Shown here: positions 3,589 through 64,000 of the stretch, piece by piece | Numbering within the stretch: the first letter of the stretch is position 1 | Layout of the letters: every line of letters starts with the position of its first letter | DNA from: Hydrangea macrophylla | Lineage: Eukaryota; Streptophyta; Magnoliopsida; Cornales; Hydrangeaceae | Direction: 5' to 3' | NCBI GenBank assembly: GCA_033977485.1 | Contig: CM066992.1 | Coordinates: 102,188,140-102,252,139 of the forward strand | Length of the DNA: 64,000 nucleotides | Position numbers and translations under genes: made by a program | Notes under the pieces: generated by a model | Database searches by the model: none | Seen by the model: the letters and a program-made list of their open reading frames with translations, nothing else | Told to the model about the DNA's origin: nothing

Positions 3589-3593
3589 GTAAG

Positions 3594-5069
3594 TAATCGG
3601 CGACGAATAGTTGCCGTTATAATTCTAAAAATACGCTTTGTTAGCCCATTTCATGTAGTTATTAGTTATTTTTTAATAAGTATTCTAAATTTTATAGGAT
3701 TTGGAGCTTTAACTTGAAAATGCACAAAAATTCAATGATTAGTGGCTTTGGAAGTCATTCTGGGCTCAAACGGTGATTCCGGAGAAAGTTGAATGCAGTA
3801 GCAGTCTCAAAATATTGTATTTTTGATAAAGAATACTTTGGATTTGAGAAATTTCTCCAGATATATAAAATATAGATCTTCGAGTTATGGACGCGTGGCT
3901 TCAAACGGAGAGTCAATCCGAGTTCCGACCAAAATGTTATCGCAATTCTACGAAAGTCGCACAGTGTAGCGAAAAGGACCTCGCGCGAGCGGGTCGCGCG
4001 AGCGACTTTTGAAAAAACCAAAAACGCGTATTTTATTAAATTAAAGTGCCCAGCGAAGGTAGTTTGTGCATATGACGTCCAGAAACGTAAATATAGCAGT
4101 TTTAGTACGATTTGGCTTAGGAAAACTTCCTAAATCCTTCCAAACTCTATATAAATCCTATTCTAAATCAAATTTAAGGTTACAAATCATTACACAACAT
4201 TAGATACAGCCATATACAACTAAAACTCCAGCCATTGAAGAGAGGAAAACAATGAGAAGAAGAAGAAGATCAAGGATTTCCATGGCCTCCTCTATCAACC
4301 TCTTGCCATTCATCAATTCTATGGCCAACTAAACCTAGATCTAGGGTTTCAATGAAACCCTAGCCAAGTAATAGGGTTTTATTTATGTTTTTATTTTAGT
4401 TTTATTATGTATGGATGACAGTTACATGTTTAGAGGATTTTTATAAATAAATCGTACTTATAATAATAAAATCATTACTTTCAAAGTTTATTCTTGTCTT
4501 AGATCTATTTTGACTGTGATGTGCTCAATGATCTATATTTGATGTGCTTGTATAGATTGTTTACATGTAATGGTGCTTAAATTGAATTGTGCTATCAAGT
4601 ATCCGAATAGTCCATGCCTAGATTAGACGGATTATACCACAACCCTAGTTTAGTGTGGGATAATTCGTGCTAACCGAAGATGGATTATGTTGGTGCTTGA
4701 TCCATAGTTATTTTCTTGACGGAGGAATTGGGCTTGTAGCTACAATTCTCCATTATCATCCAACTTAATAGGCTAAAGTAATTCATAAATATTCCTATTA
4801 TGAAGCTAGTGGTGGATTTGCAATCCTAGGTTCCTTTAAACATATTTACAAAAACATTTTTAAATCGCTTTTATAATTTAGATCTATTTTATTATTCTTA
4901 GTTTAATTAAATTCAAGATCAAAATCTCGTTTTTATAATTAATTAGATTTAAGTTTTAAAATTAAGAGTCGTAGTAATTCAATCTCTGTGGGTTCGACCT
5001 TTGCTTTCACTACTACAAATCCTTAGAAAAGTAAAGTACACTTTTTATATCTTGATATTGACAACATCA
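3594..5069 (+). repeat. 5' LTR of the Athila element
   Basis: 1,476 bp ending ACATCA. The first two bases are TA where the 3' LTR has the canonical TG, a G-to-A change. A TATA box (CTATATAAATCC) lies at about 4147-4156. A CpG-dense block CCTCGCGCGAGCGGGTCGCG lies at 3979-3998 in U3. A tract of AGA codons and two short direct CCCTAG / TAGGGTTT words follow the TATA box in the probable leader. Confidence 0.92.
4252..4332 (+). other. 26-codon micro-ORF in the LTR leader
   Basis: ATG at 4252, five AGA arginine codons, then a hydrophobic stretch including SINLLPFINSMAN and a TAA at 4330. It lies about 100 bp after the LTR TATA box, so it would be the first ORF on transcripts from the 5' LTR. The same ORF is intact in the 3' LTR at 11636-11716. 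No homology is claimed; it may be chance conservation in young sequence. Confidence 0.3.
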
Positions 5070-8252: not shown

Positions 8253-10976
8253 ATCTTGAGCTATAACGGTCTAGCTAAAGACGTAAAAGATAGCGCTTCT
8301 TGGGAGGCAACCCAAGCTTTAATTCGTTCGTTTCTTTGATTTTTGCATGTTTTTGGGTCGTTTTGGTCAGTATTTGAGTTTTTTGAACAGGTTTAGGGGT
8401 CGGGGATAATTTACTTTGAACTTATATACATTTTTATACTAAAAAAGAGGAAAAGACCACAGTTGCGCGCGCGACCCGCTCGCGCGACAGGTCGCTCGCG
8501 AGGTCCGCTCGCGCGAGATTCCCCCATAGACAAAATATTTCAAGTTTTTTTTTTATATATGTAGCCTCAGTATCACCTCGCGCCACGATTCGCGCGCGCG
8601 AGGGGGTTCGCTCGAGCGGTTCGCTCGCGCGATTTGAGGCCTTAAAAATTTTTCTTTTATAAAACGTAAAACAAGTTTCTGCTTAAACTTGCGGAAGGGA
8701 TTCGCGCGCGCGAGGCCCGCTCGCGCGAGGTAGGGTTTTCTGGTTTTTCTCCTTTGTTCTCTTCCCTCCTCTCTCCATACCTGGTCAGTGTTTTTTTTTA
8801 TACTTTCTATTTGTTCTTTTAGCCCTGTTTAGGTTCGTCTGTCTTTGTTTTTATAAGTTCTGTTTGTTTCTTTTATTTTTATTGAGTCTCTTGATTACGG
8901 TTTAGATTCTATTATTCTATTTTAAAAATAATAATAATAATAATAAAAATAAAATATAAAATAAAAAATAAAAAAAATCTAAATATTTAGCTGTTATTGT
9001 TATTATTTTGTTTTTTTTTTATTTTCTATTGTTAAGTATTACCAGGTGATTAGTAGCTTCGTTTGAACCCTGATTGAACTTTGATTCCATATTATTATAC
9101 GTTCACCTGGTTTGTGTTTGCCGAGATCGAGGTAATATCGTTCCTTTCTTACCTACTCTCTGTTCTTTCGTTTTATTGTTTCATTGGGTACAATGAAAGG
9201 TTTAGGTTTGGGGGTATGCACACACATGCACATTATTATGCACTAATTTAAAAAAAAAATTCAATTCTTGTGCTTAAATAAACAATGTTACCGACGTTTT
9301 TGCAATCTTGATTTGATACTTCTTGTTATGTAACTATGATTGTTATAGAATGGTAAACAAGAGAAGATGTGATTAAACATTTGCTAAAGTCATGATATGA
9401 TGTAATGTTTAAGTTATGTATTGTTTGAATCATAGTTTTATATCATAGATTTGCACATAAACCTATGCACTGCATGTAGTCGCTTGAATACATGTTTGAT
9501 GTGAACTATAATATGATTCAGATTTCTAGATAACACAAGGTGGAGACTAGACCCTGTGAGCTTTTGAGCCTATTTTTTCTGTTTTGAGGGTTATAAATAC
9601 ACATTGTGTTTGTCGAATTTCATTGAAATAGCGCATCTACTTGTTGTTTAGTCTCATTATTCTTGTTTTGGTTGATAAGTCAAGTTAAAATATTTGCTAC
9701 CATGCTAAATAGTCTTCCGTTGTAAACATTAAAGAACCATATGACCATAGGAGATGATTTGTAGGACTTCTTTGTTTACTAACCGATAAATGATAAAAAT
9801 TTCCTTAGTTCGCCCTTTGAGCCATTAAAATGCCATTTCTTTCTTTAATTACCATTATCCTTGTTTTTGCTCCGACTTGACAAACTTGGAGTTCACCACT
9901 GAGAGATTTGTCACCTTTTAGTGGTGTTAAGGCAATGTGTGATTGGGAAGAAGAAGATAAGATGATGTTTGGGGTGGTTGCCTTGGTATTCAATGAATGG
10001 TTGTTTCAAAAGCAACGAAAATAAAGAAAAAAGAATAAAAAAAAGAAAAAAAGGTTGGAAAAAAAAAAGAAGAGGAAAGAAATTAAAAAAGAGAATATGA
10101 AAAGAAGGGAATGAAAAGATAAAGTTGGTAGAAGAGAGAATGAAAGAAATCGAACATGCCTTACAATGCCATTCTAAAACTACCTAATGAATCCTTTCTA
10201 TCCTTTTCCATTGTCTGAGGCACATTACAACCTTTGAAAAGTCCTATTTGATCCTTGGAAACATGGTTTGGATATGAAAACGATGGGAGGGGGATTAAAA
10301 CATGGTAATGATTAATTTTTCTTGATTATTGGCATCCTATCCATGAGACTACTGTTCTTTCGTGTCATGCGTCTTGTTCGAGTCATATGTGAGCATTTCT
10401 CATTTTGAAAACATATTTCCTTTACTCACATATTTTAGAAAAATTACACCTGTTTCTGAGTGTTTCATTTTAGAGTGTAATTGACATTGTGAGATTCGTA
10501 GTTGAGACATAGTTAAATGGTTATCCGAGTTATATTCCAAGTTCATGACATGCGCGTGTTCATTTGACTACCACATCACACATGTGCTATTTTATGAGAA
10601 ACTCTATTGATTTATACGATGCATGTGCTTGAGATTGTTTTTCATGATTTAGGTCGATGTTTCATTATGTTTCTTTATGTTCGTTATTCTATTTCAAATC
10701 TTTGTTATATGATGAAGGAGTATTGAATATTATGTTCTTTATATTTAATAAAAGTTTTTAAATTGATAAGTTAATAAAGATGGTTGTGGGTAACTTGTTG
10801 ACGAGAACCCTCACGAGACCTCACTCGTCCGATTAGGGACACCTAGAGGTTTAAAAGGCTTGTTGCATATGCTAAATGCAATCGTGATCCATGCGAAAAT
10901 GAAATAGTATTTGTAGTAGTAGTTTTATGTTTCTGTTCTTTTTGCTCGAGGACTAGCAAAGAGTAGGTTTGGGGTG
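8253..10976 (+). other. Athila 3' non-coding region
   Basis: Starts with the conserved TGGGAGGCAACCCAA motif (about 8300-8315) that normally follows pol in this lineage. It then contains three CpG-rich blocks (8463-8735), an AT-rich stretch, a polypurine tract (about 10010-10150) and a final AGGTTTGGGGTG polypurine primer next to the 3' LTR. No env-like ORF is present. A second AGGTTTGGGGG word occurs near 9201. Confidence 0.75.
8463..8735 (+). repeat. CpG-dense GCGCGCGA...CCGCTCGCGCGA blocks
   Basis: Three clusters (8463-8518, 8578-8634, 8700-8731) repeat words such as CGCGCGCGA and CCGCTCGCGCGA. The first shares CGCGACCCGCTCGCGCGA with the chromovirus LTRs at 53.5 and 60.7 kb. The surrounding sequence is AT-rich, so the CpG density is local. 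Confidence 0.85.
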
Positions 10977-12453
10977 TGATCGGCGACGAATAGTTGCCGT
11001 TTATAGTTCTAAAAATACGCTTTGTTAGCCTATTTCATGTAGTTATTAGTTATTTTTTAATAAGTATTCTAAATTTTGTAGGATTTGGAGCTTTAACTTG
11101 AAAATGCACAAAAATCCAATGATTAGTGGCTTTGGAAGTCATTCTGGGCTCAAACGGTGATTCCGGAGAAAGCTGAATGCAGTAGCAGTCTCGGAAAATT
11201 ACATTTTTGATAAAGAATACTTTGGATTTGAGAAATTTCTCTAGAGATATAAAATGTAGATCTTCAAGTTATGGACGCGTGGCTTCAAACGGCGAGTCAA
11301 TCCGAGTTCCGAGCAAAACGTTATCGCAATTCTACGAAAGTCGCGCAGTGCAGCGAAAAGGACCTCGCGCGAGCGGGTCGCACGAGCGACCTTTGAAAAA
11401 ACCAAAAACGCGTATTTTATTAAATTAAAGTGCCCAGCGAAGGTGGTTTGTGCATATGACGTCCAGAAACGTAAATATAGCAGTTTTAGTACGATTTGGC
11501 TTAGGAAAACTTCCTAAATCCTTCCAAACTCTATATAAATCCTATTCTAAATCAAATTTAAGGTTACAAATCATTACACAACATTAGATACAGCCATATA
11601 CAACTAAAACTCCAGCCATTGAAGATAGGAAAACAATGAGAAGAAGAAGAAGATCAAGGATTTCCATGGCCTCCTCTATCAACCTCTTGCCATTCATCAA
11701 TTCTATGGCCAACTAAACCTAGATCTAGGGTTTCAATGAAACCCTAGCCAAGTAATAGGGTTTTATTTATGTTTTTATTTTAGTTTTATTATGTATGGAT
11801 GACAGTTACATGTTTAGAGGATTTTTATAAATAAATCGTACTTATAATAATAAAATCATTACTTTCAAAGTTTATTCTTGTCTTAGATCTATTTTGACTG
11901 TGATGTGCTCAATGATCTATATTTGATGTGCTTGTATAGATTGTTTACATGTAATGGTGCTTAAATTGAATTGTGCTATCAAGTATCCGAATAGTCCATG
12001 CCTAGATTAGACGGATTATACCACAACCCTAGTTTAGTGTGGGATAATTCGTGCTAACCGAAGATGGATTATGTTGGTGCTTGAACCATAGTTATTTTCT
12101 TGACGGAGGAATTGGACTTGTAGCTACAATTCTCCATTATCATCCAACTTAATAGGCTAAAGTAATTCATAAATATTCCTATTATGAAGCTAGTGGTGGA
12201 TTTGCAATCCTAGGTTCCTTTAAACATATTTACAAAAACATTTTTAAATCGCTTTTATAATTTAGATCTATTTTATTATTCTTAGTTTAATTAAATTCAA
12301 GATCAAAATCTCGTTTTTATAATTAATTAGATTTAAGTTTTAAAATTAAGAGTCGTAGTAATTCAATCTCTGTGGGTTCGACCTTTGCTTTCACTACTAC
12401 AAATTCTTAGAAAAGTAAAGTACACTTTTTATATCTTGATATTGACAACATCA
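10977..12453 (+). repeat. 3' LTR of the Athila element
   Basis: 1,477 bp, TGATCGGCG...ACATCA, followed directly by the GTAAG target duplication. TATA box at about 11532-11541. Nearly identical to the 5' LTR after the U3 region; the CpG block here has lost one CpG (GGGTCGCACG). Confidence 0.92.
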
Positions 12454-31000: not shown

Positions 31001-32876
31001 TGTTGGTATCAAATCCATGTTATAGATCTATGAGCTGTATGCTATATTTCCGTTATTGTAGATATGGTATATTGATGAATACAGTAATATAAGCCTAATT
31101 CTACTATGACCATTGATAGTTCATGCTCAAGCTATAAGTATGTTGTACAACATGAGTATCGCATTGATAGTGATTGGTTATGTTTCCATCGTAAGTAGTG
31201 ATGGTTAGTCGTGCTCTGGTTGTACTACTAAGGATATGAGCAGGTGAAAGTGTTCGTGTAAGTGAGGAGCTTATGAAGATGTGCTATGGGACTGGAATGA
31301 TTATAAGTGTAACGATTGATGTACTATATTCGGAAGTCGTGTAAAGAGCCTAATCTCGAAATATGTAAATATGAGTATTGTTGATTTATGGTGGGGGCGT
31401 GAGTATTGTTGATATATGTCGGGAATCAGCACGGTGATGTCAGGAGTGGGTCAAGTTGGAATGGATTGTTGGGTTAAGTAAACAAAGCCGCGGAGGTCGG
31501 GATAGTGAGTAAAAGATGTGTTTGATGGGTTGTGAAGTGATGACTATTGTGTATCGTTTCGGGTCTTCGTGACGAAAGGGGGTACGGTAAACGCTTCTGT
31601 TCTTCGTGATGACAAAGTGGTGGTTCTTAGAGTGAAGACTCCTTTCGGTTCTTAGTGATGGAATGGATGTTCTTGCACTCCGTAAACGCTTTGGTTCTTC
31701 GTGATGGCGAAGTGGTGGTTCTTAGAGTAAAGACTCCTTTCGGTTCTTAATGATGGAATGGATGTTCTTGCACTCCGTAAACGCTTCGGTTCTTCGTGAT
31801 GGCGAAGTGGTGGTTCTTAGAGTGAAGACTCCTTTCGGTTCTTAGTGATGGAATAGGTGTTCTTGCACTCCGTAAATGCTTCGGTTCTTCGTGATGGCGA
31901 AGTGGTGGTTCTTCGTGACAAGGTGGTTGGTGAAAGATGTTTTGGTTGATGAGAGATGGTTTGGTTAGTACAAGATGGTTTCGTGAAGGTTGTGGGAACA
32001 CTTTGGTTCTTCGTGACAAAGTGAAGGTTAGAAGTGGTTTGGTTAATGAAAGATGGTTTGGTTAGTGCGATGTGGATCGACTGATGAACGATGGTTTTGG
32101 TTAGTATGGTGCCAGCCTTCGGGTGGTGTTGTTCAAAGTTGGGACTCCGTGCTAGGCTGGTAATGGACTGTGATAACATTCTGGGATGTTGAAGCGAGTT
32201 GTATCGATTATTCGTATTCATCTTAGAATACTTGGTCAGGCAAGTTAGTAGTTGTTATTTGCATACGTGATTTTAGTTAATGTTGTAGTATATGGATGCC
32301 TCATTTATAAGGAGAATGTATTCTATGAAAGAAATGTTGAGATATGTGTACTGCTTACATGTGTTAGCTGAGACCTTTGCCATGCTTACGAAAGAATGCG
32401 TCTTGTGATAAGAGATTTACCGTATCTTAAGATACTGATCTATAACGTGAGCTGAGAGATGTTTTGTATTATAGATTATTGTGTGGATATGTTACTCAAT
32501 CATCTTTGTTCCAAAGCTGGCGACATTTTACATCCTGGGCATTCCCATGTCCAGAGTATTGCAGGTTGCAGTACTGAGGAGCTAAGAAAGGATAGAGCCG
32601 AGCCGGAGATCGGAAGATAGTTAATTCAGAGTTTAAGCTTATGCATAAGTTTAGTATGTCCTTATGTAATAAGTTCAAAAATTATTGTAAATCATTACAT
32701 TTCTGCTGTTGTATTATGTATTCAGTTAAGATTAAGTTATGTTTATGCTTTAGCACCGACTTATGATTACCTGTGCGGAGTTAGAAAGGACAGAACGATT
32801 AATCAACCAGTCACGTGTCCACGGATCCAAAAGTGGAAATTTATTTTTCCCTATTTTGCTACTCCGGGGCGTGACA
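28030..32876 (+). repeat. Large 3' LTR of the decayed chromovirus
   Basis: TG...CA ended, 4,847 bp. Includes TATATATA and CA/TG microsatellites (28620-28680, 28840-28925), a GA-rich leader with a possible splice donor (CTGAG|GTAAAC near 29173), AT-rich DNA at 29700-30500, and a hairpin minisatellite (31553-32025). Nested insertions inside it cannot be excluded. Small ORFs here, such as those at 28439-28902 and 31747-32221, are translations of repeats. Confidence 0.65.
31553..32025 (+). repeat. 95-bp tandem repeat with hairpin units
   Basis: TTCTTAGAGT recurs at 31624, 31719 and 31814, and GGTTCTTCG again at 31909, an exact 95-bp period. Within and around it the loop word GTTCTTCGTGA is flanked by pairing arms that differ: TTTCG/CGAAA (31557-31577), CTTCG/CGAAG (near 31786 and 31880), CACTTTG/CAAAGTG (31999-32023). 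Confidence 0.75.
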
Positions 32877-45624: not shown

Positions 45625-45982
45625 GGTTTGCAGCTTGTACGTAACTGTTATTTTCTAGAGAGAGAGAGAGAGAGAGAGAGAAATAATAGTAATAAGTGAG
45701 AGAATTACGTTAAGACCATTCCCAAACTACCGATCTCCACCGGCATCCCCCTCGCCGGTGATCGCCATTTCAAATTCTCTAAACAAAACCAAATACTTTC
45801 CAACCTATATTCCTGACGTGTCATAAATGTATATATAATATAATAATATACTTATGTTCATCACTCGAACAAAAGTTACATACACGTAAACACTAATTTT
45901 CATTTAAGAAGGGGTACCCATCTTTCTCTCTCTAGAATTTTTGAGGTGTGGGCTCTTTTGAAAACGGGGGTCCGCTGTGACC

Positions 45983-47920
45983 ATGGCGGACATTGTGAAA
46001 CAAATCCTAGCAAAGCCCATACAATTAGCCGATCACGTCACCAAAGGCGCCGACGACGCCAGCTCATTCAAGCAAGAGTGCGCCGAGATCAAAGCGAAGA
46101 CGGAGAAGCTGGCGGGACTTCTCCGGCAGGCGGCGCGTGCGAGCAACGACCTCTACGAGCGCCCCACGCGCCGCATCATCGACGACACCGAACAGGTCCT
46201 CGACAAGGCCCTAGCCCTCATCTTCAAGTGCCGCGCCAACGGAGTCAAACGCGTTTTCACTATCATCCCCACCGCCGCGTTTCGCAAGACGTCGCAGCAG
46301 CTCGAGAATTCAATCGGCGACGTTTCGTGGCTCCTCCGGGTGTCCACTCCGGCCGACGACCGCGACGACGAGTATTTGGGGCTCCCTCCTATCGCCGCCA
46401 ACGAGCCGATCCTATGCTTAATTTGGGAACAAATCGCGATCCTCTGTTCCGGGTCAATCGAAGAAAGAGCCGACGCGGCCGCCTCGCTCGTCTCTCTGGC
46501 TCGGGACAACGATCGCTACGTGAAGCTCATAATCGAGGAAGGTGGGGTCGCGCCATTGTTGAAATTGGCGAAAGAGGGGCGCATGGAGGGTCAAGAGAGC
46601 GCTGCGAGAGCGATTGGTCTTCTGGGACGTGACCCGGAAAGCGTCGAACACATTGTGAACGCTGGTGTCTGCTCAGTGTTTGCGAAAATGCTCAAAGAAG
46701 GTCACATGAAGGTTCAGGTTATGGTGGCTTGGGCTGTGTCTGAATTAGCCGCAAATCACCCGAAATGCCAAGACCACTTTGCCCAGAACAACACCATTCG
46801 ATTGCTTGTGAGTCATCTTGCTTTTGAAACAATTCAAGAACATAGTAAGTATGTGATTCCAAATAAACAAACCATGTCAATACACACAGTTGTTATGGCA
46901 AATTCATCAAATCCCGTTTCCAGCAACAAACAAGACGATGATGAAAAGAAAATCTCCGGTCAGATTTCTCGCCCAACGGGCAGTGAAACTCAAAATCAAA
47001 TGCACAATGTGATTACAAACACTATGGCCATGAAAACTCAATCCAAGGAAAACCCGAATCAATCCAAAACTAGCCTCAACACTTCAAAATCAAACCAACA
47101 TAACCACAACCAGTTCAATGTTAATATAGCCGGGACTAGCATTAAGGGGAGAGAGTATGAAGACCCAAGCACAAAAGCCCAAATGAAAGCAATGGCCGCG
47201 AGAGCTCTTTGGCATTTATGCTCCGGAAATGTACAAATATGCCGAAGCATAACAGAGTCAAGAGCGCTTTTATGCTTTGCAGTTTTGTTAGAGAAAGGCC
47301 CTGATGAAGTTCAATACAACTCGGCCATGGCGCTTATGGAAATCACAGCAGTAGCAGAGGCAAATGCAGAATTGAGACGCTCTGCGTTTAAGCCCACCTC
47401 ACCGGCTGCGAAAGCTGTGGTGGACCAGTTAGTGAAAATAATTGATAAAGCCGATTCGGACCTATTAATACCCTGCATCAACTCAATTGGACACTTGGCT
47501 AGAACATTCAGAGCCACCGAAACAAGAATCATAGCCCCCTTGGTTCGACTTCTTGATGAGAGGGAAGCTGAGGTCACTAGGGAAGCTGCAATTGCACTAA
47601 CCAAATTTGCTTGCACCGATAATTATCTACACGTTAATCACTCAAAGGCGATAATCGAGTCAGGGGGTGCTAAGCATTTGATTCAGCTTGTTTATTTTGG
47701 TGAACAAATTGTTCAATTATCGGCTTTGATTCTATTAGGTTACATTGCATTGCATGTTCCAGATAGTGAGGTTTTAGCCCAAGAAGAGGTTCTTATTGTG
47801 CTTGAGTGGGCTTCAAAGCAAGGGGCTTTGATGCAGGACCCAGAAGTTGAAACACTGTTATTGGAAGCCAAGAGTAGATTGGAACTCTATCAGTCTAGAG
47901 GTTCAAGAGGATTTCATTAA
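45983..47920 (+). CDS. ARO: ARMADILLO REPEAT ONLY (ARO) family protein
   Basis: Intronless gene of 645 residues. The N-terminus MADIVKQILAKPIQLADHV, the long conserved region through LAGLLRQAARASNDLYERPT and the GDVSWLLRVS segment (about residues 1-125) are diagnostic of plant ARO proteins. Armadillo repeats follow at about 155-285 (for example EEGGVAPLLKLAKEGRMEG) and about 390-635. They are separated by a hydrophilic Ser/Asn/Gln/Lys-rich linker at about 288-388. Family members are 600-670 residues and usually single-exon, so length and structure fit. In Arabidopsis, AROs act at the plasma membrane as scaffolds that confine ROP GTPase signalling in tip-growing and other polar cells (ARO1 in pollen). 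I cannot tell which paralogue this is. The start is the ATG at 45983; upstream in-frame codons begin at a GTG. The frame is intact. The first ~650 bp are much GC-richer than the rest, producing false ORFs on both strands. Confidence 0.95.
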   Translation: MADIVKQILAKPIQLADHVTKGADDASSFKQECAEIKAKTEKLAGLLRQAARASNDLYERPTRRIIDDTEQVLDKALALIFKCRANGVKRVFTIIPTAAFRKTSQQLENSIGDVSWLLRVSTPADDRDDEYLGLPPIAANEPILCLIWEQIAILCSGSIEERADAAASLVSLARDNDRYVKLIIEEGGVAPLLKLAKEGRMEGQESAARAIGLLGRDPESVEHIVNAGVCSVFAKMLKEGHMKVQVMVAWAVSELAANHPKCQDHFAQNNTIRLLVSHLAFETIQEHSKYVIPNKQTMSIHTVVMANSSNPVSSNKQDDDEKKISGQISRPTGSETQNQMHNVITNTMAMKTQSKENPNQSKTSLNTSKSNQHNHNQFNVNIAGTSIKGREYEDPSTKAQMKAMAARALWHLCSGNVQICRSITESRALLCFAVLLEKGPDEVQYNSAMALMEITAVAEANAELRRSAFKPTSPAAKAVVDQLVKIIDKADSDLLIPCINSIGHLARTFRATETRIIAPLVRLLDEREAEVTREAAIALTKFACTDNYLHVNHSKAIIESGGAKHLIQLVYFGEQIVQLSALILLGYIALHVPDSEVLAQEEVLIVLEWASKQGALMQDPEVETLLLEAKSRLELYQSRGSRGFH

Positions 47921-52446: not shown

Positions 52447-53483
52447 TGTAACACCCTGTATTTTCTTTTCCATTAATAAATGAATATTTTCATTTTAATT
52501 TCTCCTTATAATATATATATCTGGGGTCAAATTGTAATTTTCAAAGATATGGAAAATATTTTCTGTGGTTTCAAAATCAATATCTATATTTTTGTACAAA
52601 CCGGGAATTTATTCCTACGCAAAAATAATTTTCAGTGCTTTTATATCAACCGTAAAATACCAGTTTTGGTCTTAATCTGCGTTATACTGCGTTTTGGGTG
52701 TGGGAGCACGTGAGCTCAACCACACCGGGAGAAATCTCCCTATAACTTGGAGCCTACTCATATCAGTTTATATATATTTGTGTATTAACTCTCAAAAATC
52801 TCACAGTCTCTCAATTCACTCTCTATCCCTCTCAATTTCTCTATTACTCTCTCTATTCTCTCTATCACTCTCCTGATCACTCTCTCAAGAACACACATAA
52901 CACACATACAGTATATACATACTCATACACACATAAATAGTTATATATATATATATTTGGAGAGCAAAATCAAGAACGGAGGAAAATCCTCAACGACGGA
53001 TATTACGGCGGAAGTTCTCGGCTTTTAATTTTCTGTATAATCGTCTCTGTGAGTATTATAAACTCACTCGCCATGTTTATATATGCGTATTTCAGTATAT
53101 ATAAGTGTGTATATGTGTATATATATGTATTTCACCATTGAAGCTTGAAATTGGAGTTTTGTAAAACTCAATCAAATTCAAATCCGTGAATTGGAAATGA
53201 AAGATCTTTGTCCCAATAAGCTGTGGTTCGAATCCTACGCAATAATTCATCCGTATCACGACGAACGGTTGATTTAAAGTTTTGACACTCTAACTTTAAA
53301 CGTGAAAATTAAGCGATACAATCCATATTAGTTAAAATTGATCGCGTATTCTTAATCTACGCGGAAAACCGAGGAGATCCATATATTACATGTCCTGGTA
53401 CGAACAGAATTTGAAAATGGGTAAATTTCAGTCCAGGAATTGAAAACAGGGGAAAAACGAAGAAGATGACATTGTGCAAGAAC

Positions 53484-53641
53484 TCGCGCGCGCGACCCGC
53501 TCGCGCGAGGCTCGCTCGCGCGGACCATTCCCCCCCTTCGCGCGCGCGATCCGCTCGCGCGACCTGTTCTGCCCCTTCGCGCGCGCGATCCGCTCGCGCG
53601 ATTTGTTCTTTCCTTCGCGCGCGCGACCCGCTCGCGCGACC
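53484..53641 (+). repeat. CpG-rich repeat in LTR1 (four units)
   Basis: Four units of roughly 35-50 bp built on CGCGCGCGAYCCGCTCGCGCGA, separated by short C- or T-rich spacers. LTR2 has two full units and one partial (60716-60812). The first unit contains the 20-mer also found in the Athila LTR. ORFs on both strands (53428-53848) are Ala/Arg-rich translations of this repeat. Confidence 0.9.
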
Positions 53642-53936
53642 TGGCAGTTTGAGCAGTTTCTGTATTTTCTTATTAGGGACTGTTTGGAAAATGTTTTAAA
53701 AGTTTTTAAAGAACTGTTTGGCAAAAATAATGTTTTAAAGGTCTATGTTTTAAGAATTGTACAAACAAGAACAACTAAGGTCAAAATTTATGCTCGTACG
53801 ATTATCCGGCTTTGTGATTTATTAATGGTGTTATTTATGAAACATTGACATACATAAAAGGGTTGAGGTTGGGTCAACATGCATGTGTGTGAGAAAGCGT
53901 GAAAAGAGTAAAGGGTGGCAGTTTGGTGTGTGACCT

Positions 53937-54289
53937 CAATATCGATCGGATAGTATTCCTGGTATTGGAGGTGATAGTGTTGTGTACGACTTAGATATCG
54001 ATCGGATAGTATTCCTGGTATCTAAGGCGCGTGTTTCGGATATTGATCGGATAGTATTCCTAATATCCTAAGCGATGGTGATAGTGTTGTGTACGACTTA
54101 GATATCGATCGGATAGTATTCCTGGTATCTAAGGCGCGCGTTTCGGATATTGATCGGATAGTATTCCTGATATCCGGAGCGATGGTTGGTTGTGATCGGT
54201 CTAGATATCGATCGGATAGTATTCCTGGTATCTGATGCAGTAGTGTGGTGTGTGACTTCAATACCGATCGGATAGTATTCCTGGTATTG
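53937..54289 (+). repeat. Seven-hairpin minisatellite in LTR1
   Basis: Seven units each have the loop GATCGGATAGTATTCCT (17 nt) between 7-nt arms: CAATATC/GGTATTG (53937), AGATATC/GGTATCT (53993), GGATATT/AATATCC (54038), AGATATC/GGTATCT (54100), GGATATT/GATATCC (54145), AGATATC/GGTATCT (54203), CAATACC/GGTATTG (54259). Every stem pairs fully, counting G-U wobble. Spacers between units vary. It lies downstream of the TATA box, so it would be in the 5' leader of the transcript. The minus-strand ORF at 54022-54411 is a repeat translation. Confidence 0.92.
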
Positions 54290-54962
54290 GAGGCGATAGT
54301 GTAGCGTGTGAATTTGATGACTGAATACTTATTACTCCTGGTAGCTGAAATGATGTGTTGATTGAATTGGATTGTTCTAAAGGAAAGTATTGGCAAAATA
54401 AGATGTTTCACAATTCATGTACAATTTCGTATTTACTTCTTACTATATTCCCCCGTGATTCATGTTGGAATTGGAACCTTGAATCTATTGCTTTTAAAGT
54501 TAAATTGCACCGTTGTTTATATGCTTATATATACATTGCGAGCACTTGTTTATTTTACTCACCAGCTTTCATAAGCTGACGGCGTTGATGCGTCCTAGAC
54601 TGTATGTCCAGATTTTCAGGAGCAGGAGCAGCCAGGGTACTTCGACTATGCTAGTTAGAGGCAGGGAACTTCCCAGGAGGCTGCTTATTATTTTCCTATG
54701 TCTTTCATTTTTGAAGTTGTAATAGACTGGAGAATAGTTTTTGAATAAGGGCGTTTTGTGCCTAAGACATTGACTTATGTAATAGTTTAGTAAGTTTTAA
54801 ATTTCGGAGCTTATGTTTATTAGTATCCTTTCTTTTAGAAATGTTGTTAAGTTATTTGTTTGCAGGGACAATTGGTCATACTCACTTGTCACGACCTACG
54901 AGTCCATAAAGGAAATTAAATGCTTTCCTGAATTATGCTACGTCGGGGCGTGACAGGCTTTT

Positions 54963-54975
54963 TGGTATCAGAGCC
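54963..54975 (+). other. Primer binding site, internal region 1
   Basis: TGGTATCAGAGCC, complementary to initiator tRNA-Met, seven bases after LTR1. Confidence 0.88.
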
Positions 54976-55128
54976 AGGTTATGGCTCGACCAATTGTCCA
55001 GAACACATAGGATCTCCCGTTAAGATAGAATTAAGATAAGATAGTTCAACTTCATTCCGTGTTTAGTCATTTCCTATCATTTAGAATTTTCCTTCTTCTC
55101 GAGAGGTTGACCGAATTCTTGTTGATCA

Positions 55129-58100
55129 ATGGATAGGTACCGTTCTCTCGATTTTATGGCTGGAAGAAATCTCCGGAATCGTCCCGCTATTGAAGATGCA
55201 CCCCCGGTAATAGATCCAACCGGAATGTTCGAGGCTTTTGTAAGAAGATTGGAGAGGGTTAGTGATCAGAATGCAAGGAACAATAATCAGAATGGGAATC
55301 ACAACGGGAATGGGAGACAAGCCCACCAGACTGGAGACAAGCTTCTCAAGGAGTTTCGCGCTCTACGACCTGAGTATTTTGCGGGGACTGATGAACCCTG
55401 GCAAGCGGAACAGTGGCTACGCCAGATGGAGCGTATCTTTGAGACCATAGAGTGCACTGATCTGGAGAAGAAGCGTCTGGCTATCTTTCAGCTGTCTTAT
55501 GCAGCGGCTGATTGGTGGGATGCTGAAAAGGCGACCATCGGGGAAGAAGCTGCAAGGAGAATGCCATGGGTGGTGTTCAAGGAAAGGTTTCTCGAGAAGT
55601 ATTTCCCTGAAGAAGAGAAGGACAAGAGGGAGAAAGAGTTTATGGAGTTGACTCAAGGGAATCTGACTGTCCGTGAGTACACTACTCGATTTGAGCGTCT
55701 GTCTCGCTTTGCTCCACATATGGTGGACACACCCCAGAAGAAAATCAAGAAGTATCACCGGGGTCTCAACCTGTCTCTCCGACATTTGACTATGGGGCAT
55801 CTGGGCCAGTCATTTGAAGCTCTGGTGAGATTGGCTACGGGGTTAGAAAATGATGGTTGTCAGAATTCGAAGCCGCTTGGAAATCGACCTCTGCAGAAGG
55901 GTTATTCTGGACAGAAATCAGGGTACCCTCAAGGACAGAAAAGGACCTGGGATGGAGGAAAGAAACCTCAGCAGACACAAGCAGTTCAGCAGTATCAGCC
56001 TCTAGCAATAAAAGGAGCCAAAAACAATAACTGCTTCAATTGTGGAGTTCCTGGTCACCGAGCTAAAGATTGCAGAGCACCTAGGCGTGTGGATCGTCCA
56101 GGAGTCGTGTGCTATAACTGTGGCATGCCCGGTCACATAAGTCCGGACTGCAAGGCTCCCAGGAAAGGTAACTATGGTCAGCAAGGACAGGCCCGTCTGA
56201 ATGCTGTTATTCCCGAGGCTGCTGGCTATGAGGAGACAGGGTATGAAGAAGGTACCAATGAGGAGGGACCGCCCGAGCAACGAGCAGTGGAAGGTACTCT
56301 AACCTTGTTTAACTCTCATGTTAAAGTTTTATTTGACACGGGTGCTACACATTCCTTTATATCTGTGAAGATTGTTCAGAAGTTGGGTATAGTACCGCAA
56401 CGTTTAGATGAAGCTTTGAGTGCTGTCTCACCCTTAGGGACCACAGTCAAGTTATTACATGTATGTAAGTATTGTCCTCTACGGATTGAAGACCATGAAC
56501 TTTTGGCGAGATTGGTGGTTCTGTCGATGAAGGAGTTCGATATAATCCTGGGAATGGATTGGCTCGAGAAGAATCATGCGAAGTTGGATTGTGCAAGGAA
56601 GAAGATCACATTTGTGGACAAGGGGAATCAACTCTTCGATTTCCAATGTAACCCTTCGGGTGATATGTTCCTCACTAGATGCCTAGCAAACATTGAGGTT
56701 GTCAGTGCAGAGGTGACAGTATCATCAATCCCGGTGATCAAGGAATTTGAGGAAGTATTCCGAGATATTTCAGGATTACCGCCAGAAAGGGACATAGAAT
56801 TCTGTGTGGAATTGGTGCCAGGTACTCGACCTATAACCAAGGTTCCCTATAGGATGGCCCCTACTGAGTTGTTGGAGCTGAAAGAACAAGTTCAAGAACT
56901 TGAGAAATTGGGTTTTGTTCGTCCAAGTACTTCACCCTGGGGAGCACCAGTGTTGTTTGTGAAGAAGAAGGATGGGACAATGCGGTTGTGTATTGACTAC
57001 CGAGAACTGAATAAGGTTACTATCAAGAATAAGTATCCCTTACCTCGGATAGACGATCTGTTTGATCAGTTGCAAGGAGCCACGACCTTTTCTAAGATTG
57101 ATCTACGGTCAGGGTATCACCAGTTGAGGGTGCGGAAGGAAGACATACCTAAGACTGCTTTCAGGACGAGATACGGGCACTATGAGTTCTTAGTGATGCC
57201 GTTTGGGATGACGAATGCTCCGGCTGTGTTTATGGACTTGATGAACAGAGTATTCAAGCCCTATTTGGATCAATTCGTTATTGTCTTTATTGATGATATT
57301 TTGATCTATTCCAAGTCAGAGGAAGAGCACGAACAACATCTAAGGATCGCGTTGCAGACTCTCAAGGATCACCGCCTGTATGCTAAATTCAGCAAGTGTG
57401 AATTCTGGCTTCAGGAAGTTAAGTTCCTCGGGCATGTGATCTCACAACAAGAAATCGCAGTTGACTCTTCAAAGACCGATGCAGTGGCAAATTGGACTCG
57501 GCCGACCAATGCTACAGAAGTCAGAAGTTTTCTGGGACTAGCTGGTTACTATCGGAGATTTGTAGAGGGTTTCTCGAAGATAGCAGCCCCGTTAACTGGG
57601 TTGACTAAGAAAGTTTTGAAGTTTGAATGGACTGATAAGCATGAACGCGCTTTTCTGGAATTGAAAGAGAGATTGACAACAGCGCCAGTGCTTGCGATAC
57701 CAAAGGATGGTGAGAAGTTCACTATTTTTAGTGACGCCTCGTATCAAGGATTGGGATGTGTCCTTATGCAAGACGGAAAGGTCATCGCGTATGGTTCACG
57801 ACAGTTGAAGCCAAATGAATTGAATTACCCAACTCATGATTTGGAGCTGGCAGCAGTAGTGTTCGCGCTTAAGATCTGGAGACATTACCTCTATGGGGAG
57901 AAGTTTGATTTCTTCTCAGACCACAAAAGCCTTAAGTATTTGTTTACTCAGAAGGAGTTAAACATGAGGCAACGTCGGTGGATGGAACTGATCAAGGACT
58001 ATGACTTCACATTAGAGTACCACCCTGGTAAGGCTAACGTAGTCGCTGACGCCCTAAGCCGGAAACCTCAAGGAATGATTGCTTCATTGATGTTGAGGGA

Positions 58101-59628
58101 ATGGGAAGCCTTGGAGACAATCGCAGAATTTGATGTGCAGATTTCAGAGGGAAGTGCCGGGCAGCACTTTGGATGCCTCATGGTACAACCAACACTTGTG
58201 AGTCGAATCATCGAAGCCCAGAAGGAAGATGAGAAGTTTCAAGTATGGTTCGCAAAGATGTCAGAAAAGGACCCTACAGAATGGAAGGTTGGGGCCGATG
58301 GAGGATACCGATGTCGAGACAGATTGTGTGTGCCAGATTCAGGAGATTTGAGAAAAGATATTCTCGAAGAAGCACATAAATCGAGACTGACAGTACACCC
58401 AGGAGGAACAAAGATATATAAGGATTTGAAGAGAAATTTCTGGTGGGAAGGGATGAAGCGAGAAGTAGCCGAGTTTGTGTCTAAATGTTTGACCTGTCAA
58501 CAAGTGAAGGCCGAACATCAGAGACCCTCAGGATTGTTGCAACCCTTACCTGTTCCAGGATGGAAGTGGGAACACATAACTATGGATTTCGTGGTTGGAT
58601 TACCCCGGTCACAACAGAATCATGACGCGATTTAGGTAATTGTGGATCGTTTGACGAAGTCCGCACACTTCATCGCGTACAATATGACTTACCCAGTAGA
58701 AAGGATGAGTTGAATGTATCTACAGCAAGTGGTGCGACTGCACGGTGCACCTGTGTCAATTGTATCAGACCGCGATGCACGTTTTACCTCGGGATTTTGG
58801 GAAAGTTTGCAGAAGGCTATGGGAACTTCGCTCAAGATGAGTACTGCATTCCATCCTCAGACCGATGGACAGACCGAGCGTGTTAATCAGATTATGGAAG
58901 ATATGCTCAGAGCTTGTGCAATCGACTTTGAAGAGTCTTGGGAGACGCACTTGCCGTTGGTCGAATTTGCGTATAACAACAGTTATCACTCAAGTATTAG
59001 AATGGCACCGTTTGAGGCATTGTACGGACGGCCATGTCGATCTCCATTGTGTTGGGCAGAAGTGGGAGACACAGAACTTTTGGGACCAGATTTGGTGAGA
59101 GAAACCAATGAGAAGATTTCACTGGTCAGAGAAAGAATGAGAACTGCACAGAGTAGACACAAGAGTTATGCGGATCGGCGTCGAAAGGATTTGGAGTTCA
59201 GTATCGGAGATCACGTACTCCTTAAGGTTTCACCTGTTCGGGGAGTAGTACGTTTTGGTCAGAAAAGAGGAAAGTTGGCACCTCGTTTCATCGGGCCATT
59301 TGAGATATTGGAGCGAGTTGGAACAGTGGCTTATCGACTCGCGTTGCCACCAAAGATGTCTGGTGTTCATAACGTATTCCATGTCTGTATGTTAAGGAAA
59401 TACATACGGGATCCTTCACATGTGGTTAATTTTGATGATATTGAGACGAGTCAGAATGTTGTCTACAAGGATAGACCTGTGAGGATTCTTGACCAGAGTA
59501 TCAAGAGGCTCAGAAGAAGAGACGTTCCTTTGGTTAAGGTTCAGTGGAGGCATCATGACGAGGGAGAAGCGTCGTGGGAGTTAGAGTCAGACATGAGGAC
59601 TAGATACCCCGAGTTGTTTCAGGATTAG
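55129..59628 (+). pseudogene. Chromovirus gag-pol, two nonsense changes in integrase
   Basis: One frame of 1,500 codons from ATG 55129 to TAG 59626-59628. Gag occupies the first ~300 residues, with two CCHC knuckles ([14 protein letters not shown] from Cys302; [14 protein letters not shown] from Cys328). Protease DTGA is at 403-406. Reverse transcriptase spans about 560-780 with the active-site FIDDI (Asp722, Asp723). RNase H starts near 865 (SDAS, Asp869). Integrase has HHCC (His1083, His1090, then CLTC), catalytic Asp1153, Asp1214 and Glu1250. A chromodomain-type end (VKVQWRHHDEGEASWELE) closes it. In-frame stops TAG at 58633-58635 (where relatives have Trp) and TGA at 58711-58713 cut the integrase between its first and second catalytic Asp. 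Both fit G-to-A or C-to-T changes from cytosine methylation. All other domains are intact. Confidence 0.92.
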
Positions 59629-59659
59629 TTAGCTCAGATTTCGGGACGAAATCTCTGTT

Positions 59660-59672
59660 AAGGTGGGTAGAG
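59660..59672 (+). other. Polypurine tract before LTR2
   Basis: AAGGTGGGTAGAG directly precedes LTR2, after the conserved GGGACGAAATCTC motif. This is the expected plus-strand primer for internal region 1. Confidence 0.75.
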
Positions 59673-62126
59673 TGTAACACCCTGTATTTTCTTTTCCATT
59701 AATAAATGAATATTTTCATTTTAATTTCTCCTTATAATATATATATCTGGGGTCAAATTGTAATTTTCAAAGATATGGAAAATATTTTCTGTGGTTTCAA
59801 AATCAATATCTATATTTTTGTACAAACCGGGAATTTATTCCTACGCAAAAATAATTTTCAGTGCTTTTATATCAACCGTAAAATACCAGTTTTGGTCTTA
59901 ATCTGCGTTATACTGCGTTTTGGGTGTGGGAGCACGTGAGCTCAACCACACCGGGAGAAATCTCCCTATAACTTGGAGCCTACTCATATCAGTTTATATA
60001 TATTTGTGTATTAACTCTCAAAAACCTCACAGTCTCTCAATTCACTCTCTATCCCTCTCAATTTCTCTATTACTCTCTCTATTCTCTCTATCACTCTCCT
60101 GATCACTCTCTCAAGAACACACATAACACACATACAGTATATACATACTCATACACACATAAATAGTTATATATATATATATATATATTTGGAGAGCAAA
60201 ATCAAGAACGGAGGAAAATCCTCAACGACGGATATTACGGCGGAAGTTCTCGGCTTTTAATTTTCTGTATAATCGTCTCTGTGAGTATTATAAACTCACT
60301 CGCCATGTTTATATATGCGTATTTCAGTATATATAAGTGTGTATATGTGTATATATATGTATTTCACCATTGAAGCTTGAAATTGGAGTTTTGTAAAACT
60401 CAATCAAATTCAAATCCGTGAATTGGAAACGAAAGATCTTTGTCCCAATAAGCTGTGGTTCGAATCCTACGCAATAATTCATCCGTATCACGACGAACGG
60501 TTGATTTAAAGTTTTGACACTCTAACTTTAATCGTGAAAATTAAGCGATACAATCCATATTAGTTAAAATTGATCGCGTATTCTTAATCTACGCGGAAAA
60601 CCGAGGAGATCCATATATTACATGTCCTGGTACGAACAGAATTTGAAAATGGGTAAATTTCAGTCCAGGAATTGAAAACAGGGGAAAAACGAAGAAGATG
60701 ACATTCTGCAAGAACTCGTGCGCGCGACCCGCTCGCGCGAGGCTCGCTCGCGCGGACCATTCCCCCCCTTCGCGCGCGCGATCCTTCGCGCGCGCGACCC
60801 GCTCGCGCGACCTAGCAGTTTGAGCAGTTTCTGTATTTTCTTATTAGGGACTGTTTGGAAAATATTTTAAAAGTTTTTAAAGAACTGTTTGGCAAAAATA
60901 ATGTTTTAAAGGTCTATGTTTTAAGAATTGTACAAACAAGAACAACTAAGGTCAAAATTTATTCTCGTACGATTATCCGGCTTTGTGATTTATTAATGGT
61001 GTTATTTATGAAACATTGACATACATAAAAGGGTTGAGGTTGGGTCAACATGCATGTGTGTGAGAAAGCGTGAAAAGAGTAAAGGGTGGCAGTTTGGTGT
61101 GTGACCTCAATATCGATCGGATAGTATTCCTGGTATTGGAGGTGATAGTGTTGTGTACGACTTAGATATCGATCGGATAGTATTCCTGGTATCTAAGGCG
61201 CGTGTTTCGGATATTGATCGGATAGTATTCCTAATATCCTAAGCGATGGTGATAGTGTTGTGTACGACTTAGATATCGATCGGATAGTATTCCTGGTATC
61301 TAAGGCGCGCGTTTCGGATATTGATCGGATAGTATTCCTGATATCCGGAGCGATGGTTGGTTGTGATCGGTCTAGATATCGATCGGATAGTATTCCTGGT
61401 ATCTGATGCAGTAGTGTGGTGTGTGACTTCAATACCGATCGGATAGTATTCCTGGTATTGGAGGCGATAGTGTAGCGTGTGAATTTGATGACTGAATACT
61501 TATTACTCCTGGTAGCTGAAATGATGTGTTGATTGAATTGGATTGTTCTAAAGGAAAGTATTGGCAAAATAAGATGTTTCACAATTCATGTACAATTTCG
61601 TATTTACTTCTTACTATATTCCCCCGTGATTCATGTTGGAATTGGAACCTTGAATCTATTGCTTTTAAAGTTAAATTGCACCGTTGTTTATATGCTTATA
61701 TATACATTGCGAGCACTTGTTTATTTTACTCACCAGCTTTCATAAGCTGACGGCGTTGATGCGTCCTAGACTGTATGTCCAGATTTTCAGGAGCAGGAGC
61801 AGCCAGGGTACTTCGACTATGCTAGTTAGAGGCAGGGAACTTCCCAGGAGGCTGCTTATTATTTTCCTATGTCTTTCATTTTTGAAGTTGTAATAGACTG
61901 GAGAATAGTTTTTGAATAAGGGCGTTTTGTGCCTAAGACATTGACTTATGTAATAGTTTAGTAAGTTTTAAATTTCGGAGCTTATGTTTATTAGTATCCT
62001 TTCTTTTAGAAATGTTGTTAAGTTATTTGTTTGCAGGGACAATTGGTCATACTCACTTGTCACGACCTACGAGTCCATAAAGGAAATTAAATGCTTTCCT
62101 GAATTATGCTACGTCGGGGCGTGACA
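59673..62126 (+). repeat. Chromovirus LTR2 (shared by both units)
   Basis: 2,454 bp. It is both the 3' LTR of internal region 1 and the 5' LTR of internal region 2, because a primer binding site follows it rather than flanking DNA. TATA box near 59994-60006, a longer TA run at 60167-60187, fewer CpG units (60716-60812), and the same seven hairpins at 61108-61460. Confidence 0.92.
61108..61460 (+). repeat. Seven-hairpin minisatellite in LTR2
   Basis: Identical in unit order, loops and arms to 53937-54289, so it has not been scrambled since the two LTRs separated. Confidence 0.9.
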
Positions 62127-62133
62127 GGCTTTT

Positions 62134-62146
62134 TGGTATCAGAGCC
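62134..62146 (+). other. Primer binding site, internal region 2
   Basis: TGGTATCAGAGCC after LTR2. Its presence here shows that a second internal region begins. Confidence 0.88.
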
Positions 62147-62299
62147 AGGTTATGGCTTGACCAATTGTCCAGAACACATAGGATCTCCCGTTAAGATAGA
62201 ATTAAGATAAGATAGTTCAACTTCATTCCGTGTTTAGTCATTTCCTATCGTTTAGAATTTTCCTTCTTCTCGAGAGGTTGACCGAATTCTTGTTGATCA

Positions 62300-64000
62300 A
62301 TGGATAGGTACCGTTCTCTCGATTTTATGGCTGGAAGAAATCTCCGGAATCGTCCCGCTATTGAAGATGCACCCCCGGTAATAGATCCAACCGGAATGTT
62401 CGAGGCTTTTGTAAGAAGATTGGAGAGGGTTAGTGATCAGAATGCAAGGAACAATAATCAGAATGGGAATCACAACGGGAATGGGAGACAAGCCCACCAG
62501 ACTGGAGACAAGCTTCTCAAGGAGTTTCGCGCTCTACGACCTGAGTATTTTGCGGGGACTGATGAACCCTGGCAAGCGGAACAGTGGCTACGCCAGATGG
62601 AGCGTATCTTTGAGACCATAGAGTGCACTGATCTGGAGAAGAAGCGTCTGGCTATCTTTCAGCTGTCTTATGCAGCGGCTGATTGGTGGGATGCTGAAAA
62701 GGCGACCATCGGGGAAGAAGCTGCAAGGAGAATGCCATGGGTGGTGTTCAAGGAAAGGTTTCTCGAGAAGTATTTCCCTGAAGAAGAGAAGGACAAGAGG
62801 GAGAAAGAGTTTATGGAGTTGACTCAAGGGAATCTGACTGTCCGTGAGTACACTACTCGATTTGAGCGTCTGTCTCGCTTTGCTCCACATATGGTGGACA
62901 CACCCCAGAAGAAAATCAAGAAGTATCACCGGGGTCTCAACCTGTCTCTCCGACATTTGACTATGGGGCATCTGGGCCAGTCATTTGAAGCTCTGGTGAG
63001 ATTGGCTACGGGGTTAGAAAATGATGGTTGTCAGAATTCGAAGCCGCTTGGAAATCGACCTCCGCAGAAGGGTTATTCTGGACAGAAATCAGGGTACCCT
63101 CAAGGACAGAAAAGGACCTGGGATGGAGGAAAGAAACCTCAGCAGACACAAGCAGTTCAGCAGTATCAGCCTCTAGCAATAGAAGGGGCCAAAAACAATA
63201 ACTGCTTCAATTGTGGAGTTCCTGGTCACCGAGCTAAAGATTGCAGAGCACCTAGGCGTGTGGATCGTCCAGGAGTCGTGTGCTATAACTGTGGCATGCC
63301 CGGTCACATAAGTCCGGACTGCAAGGCTCCCAGGAAAGGTAACTATGGTCAGCAAGGACAGGCCCGTCTGAATGCTGTTATTCCCGAGGCTGCTGGCTAT
63401 GAGGAGACAGGGTATGAAGAAGGTACCAATGAGGAGGGACCGCCCGAGCAACGAGCAGTGGAAGGTACTCTAACCTTGTTTAACTCTCATGTTAAAGTTT
63501 TATTTGACACGGGTGCTACACATTCCTTTATATCTGTGAAGATTGTTCAGAAGTTGGGTATAGTACCGCAACGTTTAGATGAAGCTTTGAGTGCTGTCTC
63601 ACCCTTAGGGACCACAGTCAAGTTATTACATGTATGTAAGGATTGTCCTCTACGGATTGAAGACCATGAACTTTTGGCGAGATTGGTGGTTCTGTCGATG
63701 AAGGAGTTCGATATAATCCTGGGAATGGATTGGCTCGAGAAGAATCATGCGAAGTTGGATTGTGCAAGGAAGAAGATCACATTTGTGGATAAGGGGAATC
63801 GACTCTTCGATTTCCAATGTAACCCTTCGGGTGATATGTTCCTCACTAGATGCCTAGCAAACATTGAGGTTGTCAGTGCAGAGGTGACAGTATCATCAAT
63901 CCCGGTGATCAAGGAATTTGAGGAAGTATTCCGAGATATTTCAGGATTACCGCCAGAAAGGGACATAGAATTCTGTGTGGAATTGGTGCCAGGTACTCGA
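62300..64000 (+). CDS. Chromovirus gag-protease, second copy (runs off window)
   Basis: Open for 567 codons from ATG 62300 to the last base, covering gag, both zinc knuckles, the DTGA protease and the start of the region before reverse transcriptase. It matches the first copy with only a few substitutions: a Lys-to-Glu before the first knuckle (63182), a Tyr-to-Asp near 63640, a Gln-to-Arg near 63799. No break is seen in this part. Whether the integrase stops of copy 1 are shared cannot be judged, as that part lies outside the window. Confidence 0.88.
   Translation, partial: MDRYRSLDFMAGRNLRNRPAIEDAPPVIDPTGMFEAFVRRLERVSDQNARNNNQNGNHNGNGRQAHQTGDKLLKEFRALRPEYFAGTDEPWQAEQWLRQMERIFETIECTDLEKKRLAIFQLSYAAADWWDAEKATIGEEAARRMPWVVFKERFLEKYFPEEEKDKREKEFMELTQGNLTVREYTTRFERLSRFAPHMVDTPQKKIKKYHRGLNLSLRHLTMGHLGQSFEALVRLATGLENDGCQNSKPLGNRPPQKGYSGQKSGYPQGQKRTWDGGKKPQQTQAVQQYQPLAIEGAKNNNCFNCGVPGHRAKDCRAPRRVDRPGVVCYNCGMPGHISPDCKAPRKGNYGQQGQARLNAVIPEAAGYEETGYEEGTNEEGPPEQRAVEGTLTLFNSHVKVLFDTGATHSFISVKIVQKLGIVPQRLDEALSAVSPLGTTVKLLHVCKDCPLRIEDHELLARLVVLSMKEFDIILGMDWLEKNHAKLDCARKKITFVDKGNRLFDFQCNPSGDMFLTRCLANIEVVSAEVTVSSIPVIKEFEEVFRDISGLPPERDIEFCVELVPGTR

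Follow-up and report, generated by a model that had tools for sequence, protein, structure and literature searches.

Introduction

The psi packaging signal of retroviruses is composed of stem-loops in the 5' region of the genomic RNA, which are located downstream of or around the splice donor and are bound there by Gag. The hairpin array described in this study would also lie in the 5' region of a genomic RNA, but psi consists of a few unlike hairpins, whereas here one hairpin is repeated, usually 5–11 times, inside the long terminal repeat (LTR), with Gag as a candidate partner. The constitutive transport element of simple retroviruses similarly presents a repeated conserved loop in intron-containing RNA; it has two loops in one long stem, in contrast to the separate tandem hairpins reported here, for which such a role is a candidate. 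The Drosophila gypsy insulator, too, has conserved cores in tandem, and these are located in the transcribed leader of a Ty3/gypsy element. However, the insulator works as DNA, through a zinc-finger protein, while the stems of the present array keep pairing in the sense RNA.

In plants, tobacco Tnt1 has short tandem repeats within its LTR, and these are described as U3 repeats that control transcription (PMC3601003), whereas the present array is downstream of a TATA-like box and its stems keep pairing. Another LTR element of plants, BARE, has a spliced RNA that is separate from the packaged one and is therefore a plant precedent for distinct RNA pools; it is a Ty1/copia element with dimerisation and packaging signals, and the portion of that source available describes no hairpin array (PMC3735527). 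Among the papers listed in one open-licence library, judged by titles and the starts of abstracts, no described hairpin array of plant LTRs was found, nor were the first 16 letters of the loop found as text in that library. A retroelement RNA signal is already a known kind of element, and what is new here is the tandem design in thousands of LTRs.

Results

Host element and LTR context

The window, i.e., the whole stretch of 64,000 nucleotides of Hydrangea macrophylla DNA that was analysed, contains an LTR retrotransposon with the following features.

52447..54955 (about 2.5 kb), + strand: LTR1, TGTAACACCC...GGGCGTGACA, with ends placed from the sequence and from its repetition in the second copy
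52763..52830, + strand: promoter-like TATA-like box (near 52770) and CT-rich stretch, kept in 5/5 LTRs aligned there, window included
53049..53067, + strand: GTGAGT-ATTATAA-ACTCAC, a donor-like site inside a 6-bp hairpin, stems kept in 7/7 aligned LTRs
53937..54289, + strand: seven-hairpin array of LTR1, from loop count, alignment, single-unit folds and pairing count
53937-53967, 53993-54023, 54038-54068 and 54100-54130, + strand: units 1-4 of LTR1 (arm-loop-arm)
54145-54175, 54203-54233 and 54259-54289, + strand: units 5-7 of LTR1 (arm-loop-arm)
about 54312..54352, + strand: degenerate, non-folding eighth unit (fold z +1.59), recognised by eye through comparison with the final unit of L035/L036
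54563..54619, + strand: two small hairpins and then acceptor-like TTTTCAG (54613-54619); TTTTCAG and the first hairpin kept in 7/7 aligned LTRs
54963..54975, + strand: primer-binding-site-like TGGTATCAGAGCC, from the sequence
55126..59628, + strand: interrupted gag-pol frames with Retrotrans_gag, two CCHC knuckles, protease, RT, RNase H, integrase H2C2 and SH3_Tf2-1
59673..62126, + strand: LTR2, end placed by homology with LTR1
61108..61460, + strand: seven-unit array of LTR2, the same as the LTR1 array over its whole length

The gag-pol domains were identified by searching pieces of the interrupted frame apart, and a Chromo domain scored 19.8 bits, below the cut-off of 25.1. The element has the LTRs, the primer-binding site and the gag-protease-RT-RNaseH-integrase order of Ty3/gypsy elements. 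We take the primer-binding-site-like sequence to be of the initiator-Met type, and the element is a candidate chromovirus (Tekay/Del lineage), a group defined by a chromodomain at the C-terminus of the integrase. The second copy of the homologous stretch continues past LTR2 into gag up to the window end (98.1% identity over 4390 columns), and the element is arranged in tandem as LTR-internal-LTR-internal (52447-64000), and one more copy of part of the LTR is found beyond the window at C11:102256980. A similar three-LTR spacing was observed at C1:21812302/21819436/21826570.

The seven LTRs compared around the array include that of the window and are about 80% identical to it overall. Among them, the loop of the donor-like hairpin (fold -6.7 kcal/mol) varies, and a 27-mer with the window's version of this loop has 1,216 copies in the genome. 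The second small hairpin before TTTTCAG has one mismatch in the window copy. The first-pass annotation had placed the array in the 5' leader of the genomic RNA, which is plausible. Since the conserved GTGAGT and TTTTCAG flank the array, it might be absent from a spliced RNA; should they be true splice sites, the array would be intronic and would mark the unspliced RNA.

Other repeats were also seen. CG-rich, near-palindromic repeats of about 39 bp occupy 53483-53641 in LTR1, with fewer copies in LTR2. Elsewhere, the window holds a direct repeat at 3593-5069 and 10976-12453 (1.48 kb, 98% identical), possibly the LTRs of another element, a 95-bp tandem repeat at 31587-31913 (3.4 copies, 94% matching) and an intact armadillo-repeat-only (ARO) gene at 45962-47920, whose best match is in Davidia (86% identical).

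The seven-unit array

The loop GATCGGATAGTATTCCT occurs in 14 exact copies in the window and in none of its shuffles. Seven copies are in each LTR, spanning 53944..54282 and 61115..61453. The first-pass annotation had claimed seven units with one identical 17-nt loop, stems that pair at all 49 positions if G-U is allowed, and the same array in LTR2. All of this was borne out: the count is seven per LTR, 49/49 cells are paired with the arms as it had described them (its seven stem positions being alignment columns 10-16 with 34-40), and the two arrays are identical, with 0 differences at the 487 sites compared for this pair.

In single-unit folds, a lower stem of more than 7 pairs closed by G-U is followed by an AUC bulge, a GGA/UCC upper helix and a UAGUAU hexaloop. 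The z scores ranged from -2.15 to -3.67, except for unit 6 (-0.74), and the whole array folded barely better than its shuffles (z -1.27). No Rfam family matched the window at the gathering score.

A 107-bp segment is duplicated in units 2-3 and 4-5, and therefore only three stem types at positions 1-2 exist among the seven units. Percent paired and the covariation score were both beyond shuffles (0/500 each), but pairs changed on both sides numbered 4 against 2.9 in shuffles, and 155/500 shuffles were as high. With only three stem types arising from duplication, the seven units alone could not settle the question of selection.

Family sample across the genome

The H. macrophylla genome was reported as 2.22 Gb in 18 pseudochromosomes (PMC10734616). 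The assembly searched here was 2.22 Gb in 19 contigs, and all of our data come from this one genome. The exact loop was found 13,311 times (6,947 + 6,364; reversed control 0), which makes the hairpin claim testable, and the 34-mer of the first unit 1,524 + 1,484 times. We sampled 165 arrays from about 120 elements, giving 1,257 units and 310 distinct 37-nt cores. An array held 2-14 units, most commonly 7. The unit finder was gap-free, and units with loop indels were missed or misread. Overlapping duplicates (L018, L019, L020-L027, L030-L033, L037, L038, L041, L043 and L045) did not enter the unit counts.

Most of the sampled arrays were located by the loop or unit pattern, which favours presence. 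When stretches were located by the downstream flank, the array was present in 20/20, taken from 40 listed places whose LTRs are closely related to that of the window. It was present in 9/10 stretches located by means of the donor-like motif, for which 100 of the 1,216 places were listed; these ten (L214-L223) were used for the presence count only, L214 being the stretch without a unit. Of 16 further stretches guessed to be LTR partners, L079 carried an array and was retained, L081 gave a single spurious hit, and nothing was found in the other 14. The two mates of an LTR pair were sometimes different by two or four units (L057/L058, 5/7; L095/L096, 9/7; L106/L107, 9/13; L118/L119, 11/9; L136/L137, 6/8), which looks like gain or loss of a two-unit block.

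Outside the family, 16 viral-contig records had one exact 17-mer each without the flanking arms, and they look unrelated (probably phage coding sequence), because 13/16 share one flanking sequence. A 27-mer had 0 matches in bacterial and archaeal genomes. An RT piece gave 10 pattern matches in viral contigs, none of them a relative, and an array-derived peptide gave no protein match at E up to 10.

Neutral changes between LTR pairs

As a neutral control, 45 pairs of LTR copies were compared, mostly the two LTRs of one element and in some cases tandem copies. The differences were spread evenly over the loop (56/5576, 1.00%), the stem (63/6559, 0.96%) and the spacer (94/7884, 1.19%), and hence the loop is no mutational cold spot. 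When the stem pairs are counted outward from the loop as k, 22 of the changes at k0-k7 kept pairing and 36 broke it (36/58). There were 0 double changes among the 63 stem events. With no doubles and many broken pairs, arm repair after insertion was not seen in these LTR pairs.

Pairing in common and private unit types

A core was called common when it was present in 10 or more elements (n=18) and private when it was present in one element only (n=225), both thresholds being our own choice. In the 18 common types, k0-k7 were paired in 144/144 cells. Their 15 distinct arm pairs were paired in 120/120 cells, while shuffled arms reached 109.4 (sd 2.2, max 117; 0/2000 as high). The 225 private cores, on the other hand, had broken pairs at every position. 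One-sided stem steps kept or broke pairing at 13:0 between common types versus 22:39 in private ones (Fisher 1.4e-5), and at 16:1 versus 25:39 when the threshold was 5 elements (Fisher 5.4e-5); the counted steps were taken from a minimum spanning tree and do not represent reconstructed events. Two earlier, smaller analyses had given p values of 0.010 and 0.017 for k0-k7, and 0.047 and 0.10 for k0-k9. The pairs k8-k9 were unprotected (3 keep, 6 break). Broken types also occur among those present in 3 or more elements; several of these are, by eye, G-to-A changes at CpG sites and may reflect recurrent decay.

The first-pass annotation had stated that the arms change together. This holds between types, five two-sided pair differences being found between common types, but not for single events. 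Same-branch double changes were not enriched (2 observed against a null mean of 3.8; tree-based, 129 units), so that stem evolution appears to be stepwise, and most steps between common types were one-sided, stopping at G-U. Arms that vary independently, which the annotation had named as evidence against its reading, were seen in the private post-insertion copies and not among the common types.

The sense strand folded better than the antisense strand in 18/18 common unit types (means -12.45 vs -7.42 kcal/mol), and shuffling the arms among these types cost about 2.4 kcal/mol. The mismatch tolerated at k0-k7 was G-U on the sense strand, not A-C. These two asymmetries favour sense RNA over a DNA cruciform or an antisense RNA, although a copying bias (C-to-T and A-to-G on the sense strand) could imitate part of the G-U result. 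Selection on folded RNA, as proposed before, is supported by the difference between common and private types, and the cruciform offered beside it is disfavoured. The array shows what is expected of a selected structured RNA, namely pairing that shared lineages keep beyond the neutral expectation, and sense asymmetry. Judged from these comparisons, pairing at the eight inner stem positions is kept by selection on the sense strand, and the units are very probably selected sense-RNA hairpins.

Two other roles were considered and rejected. Kissing-loop dimerisation via GATC does not fit, as GATC becomes GAGC in common types and the UAKUAU loop is not self-complementary. The stems are also too short for small-RNA precursors.

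Conservation of the loop

The loop had been described as invariant, which is true of the window's seven units; among the common types of the family, however, position 10 is G or T and position 3 is T or G. Steps between common types occurred at position 10 (four), at position 3 (three) and at positions 7 and 13, and the last two both belong to the degenerate GAGCGGTTATTACTCCT unit. In 32 common contexts, the mean column heterozygosity was 0.045 in the loop, 0.095 in the inner stem, 0.445 in the outer stem and 0.405 in the spacer. Outside positions 3 and 10, which were set aside post hoc after looking at the data, loop:stem changes were 2:27 in common and 40:72 in private types (Fisher 0.0025), while for the whole loop the lineage and private changes (9:27 vs 42:72) were not significantly different (p 0.23). 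After insertion, loop and spacer mutate at about the same rate, but the loop is far less variable between types. On these sequences, the loop core is conserved beyond its mutation rate.

Discussion

In this study, we found tandem hairpins whose inner stems keep pairing between the common types of a large LTR family. We suggest, with a probability of about 0.5, that, in this Ty3/gypsy LTR retrotransposon, the array acts in cis as an RNA element which binds a protein multivalently on the unspliced genomic RNA. Each unit would fold in the sense transcript with a kept core (inner stem, AUC bulge, GGA/UCC helix and UAKUAU loop) and an outer stem that is free to change while still pairing. Transcription from the TATA-like box would run through the array, and, as the array would lie in an intron-like stretch (53049-54619), only unspliced RNA would retain it; that the array marks unspliced RNA is, in our judgement, an evenly balanced proposition. 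Many copies of one core may allow one protein to be bound many times, and this is the simplest role that we can propose, because the core is kept, the outer stems are free and the copies are many. The likeliest partner would be the element's own Gag, with its two CCHC knuckles, selecting unspliced genomic RNA for packaging, and a host export factor would be the next candidate. Gag packaging in particular is put forward only tentatively. The fuller proposal, that an LTR-intron array of duplicated hairpins is a multivalent tag by which either Gag or a host export factor selects the unspliced genomic RNA, the loop core being the recognised part and the outer stems drifting only within pairing, is likewise doubtful in all its parts together.

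The same RNA array might instead serve nuclear export or splicing control, with a host factor exporting intron-containing RNA or the intron being held unspliced. The position between conserved donor-like and acceptor-like sites, the former within a conserved hairpin, is consistent with this; however, such a role shares every observation with packaging, and we regard it as fairly unlikely. It is improbable that the array acts as DNA, as tandem sites of an enhancer or insulator for a host DNA-binding protein, each site including the dyad symmetry. Tandem cores conserved beyond the mutation rate would suit such sites, and the gypsy insulator offers a retroelement precedent, but the letters of the outer stem differ between types and yet pair, G-U and not A-C is tolerated at k0-k7, and the antisense strand folds worse in all 18 common types.

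Two explanations without functional selection were also weighed. Template switching or gene conversion between arms, a mechanism described in PMC8794818, could keep stems complementary; the paired states do recur, reverse transcription offers chances for template switching, and there are the five two-sided differences between common types. It is nevertheless very unlikely to be the cause, as most steps between common types alter one side and end at G-U, same-branch doubles show no enrichment and the loop core is left unexplained; the lack of doubles in the LTR pairs also speaks against it, within the limit that those are post-insertion changes, blind to errors of reverse transcription. A plain minisatellite, in which a few duplicated stem types give the appearance of covariation, agrees with the three stem types of the window, with its two-sided pairs being no more frequent than in shuffles and with the unequal unit numbers of LTR-pair mates. 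Against it are the 13:0 and 22:39 ratios in the genome sample and a loop that is as mutable as the spacer after insertion yet far less variable between types, and we give this explanation the least credit of all.

Taken together, the hairpin array points to an apparently undescribed RNA control element of a very abundant plant retrotransposon. The way in which plant LTR retrotransposons discriminate between genomic and messenger RNA has been worked out in few cases. With thousands of natural copies of the motif in one genome, its folding, selection and binding may be tested with natural variants. The comparison of common types with the changes between LTR pairs would also be a cheap way to separate selection on an RNA fold from neutral decay in any abundant retroelement.
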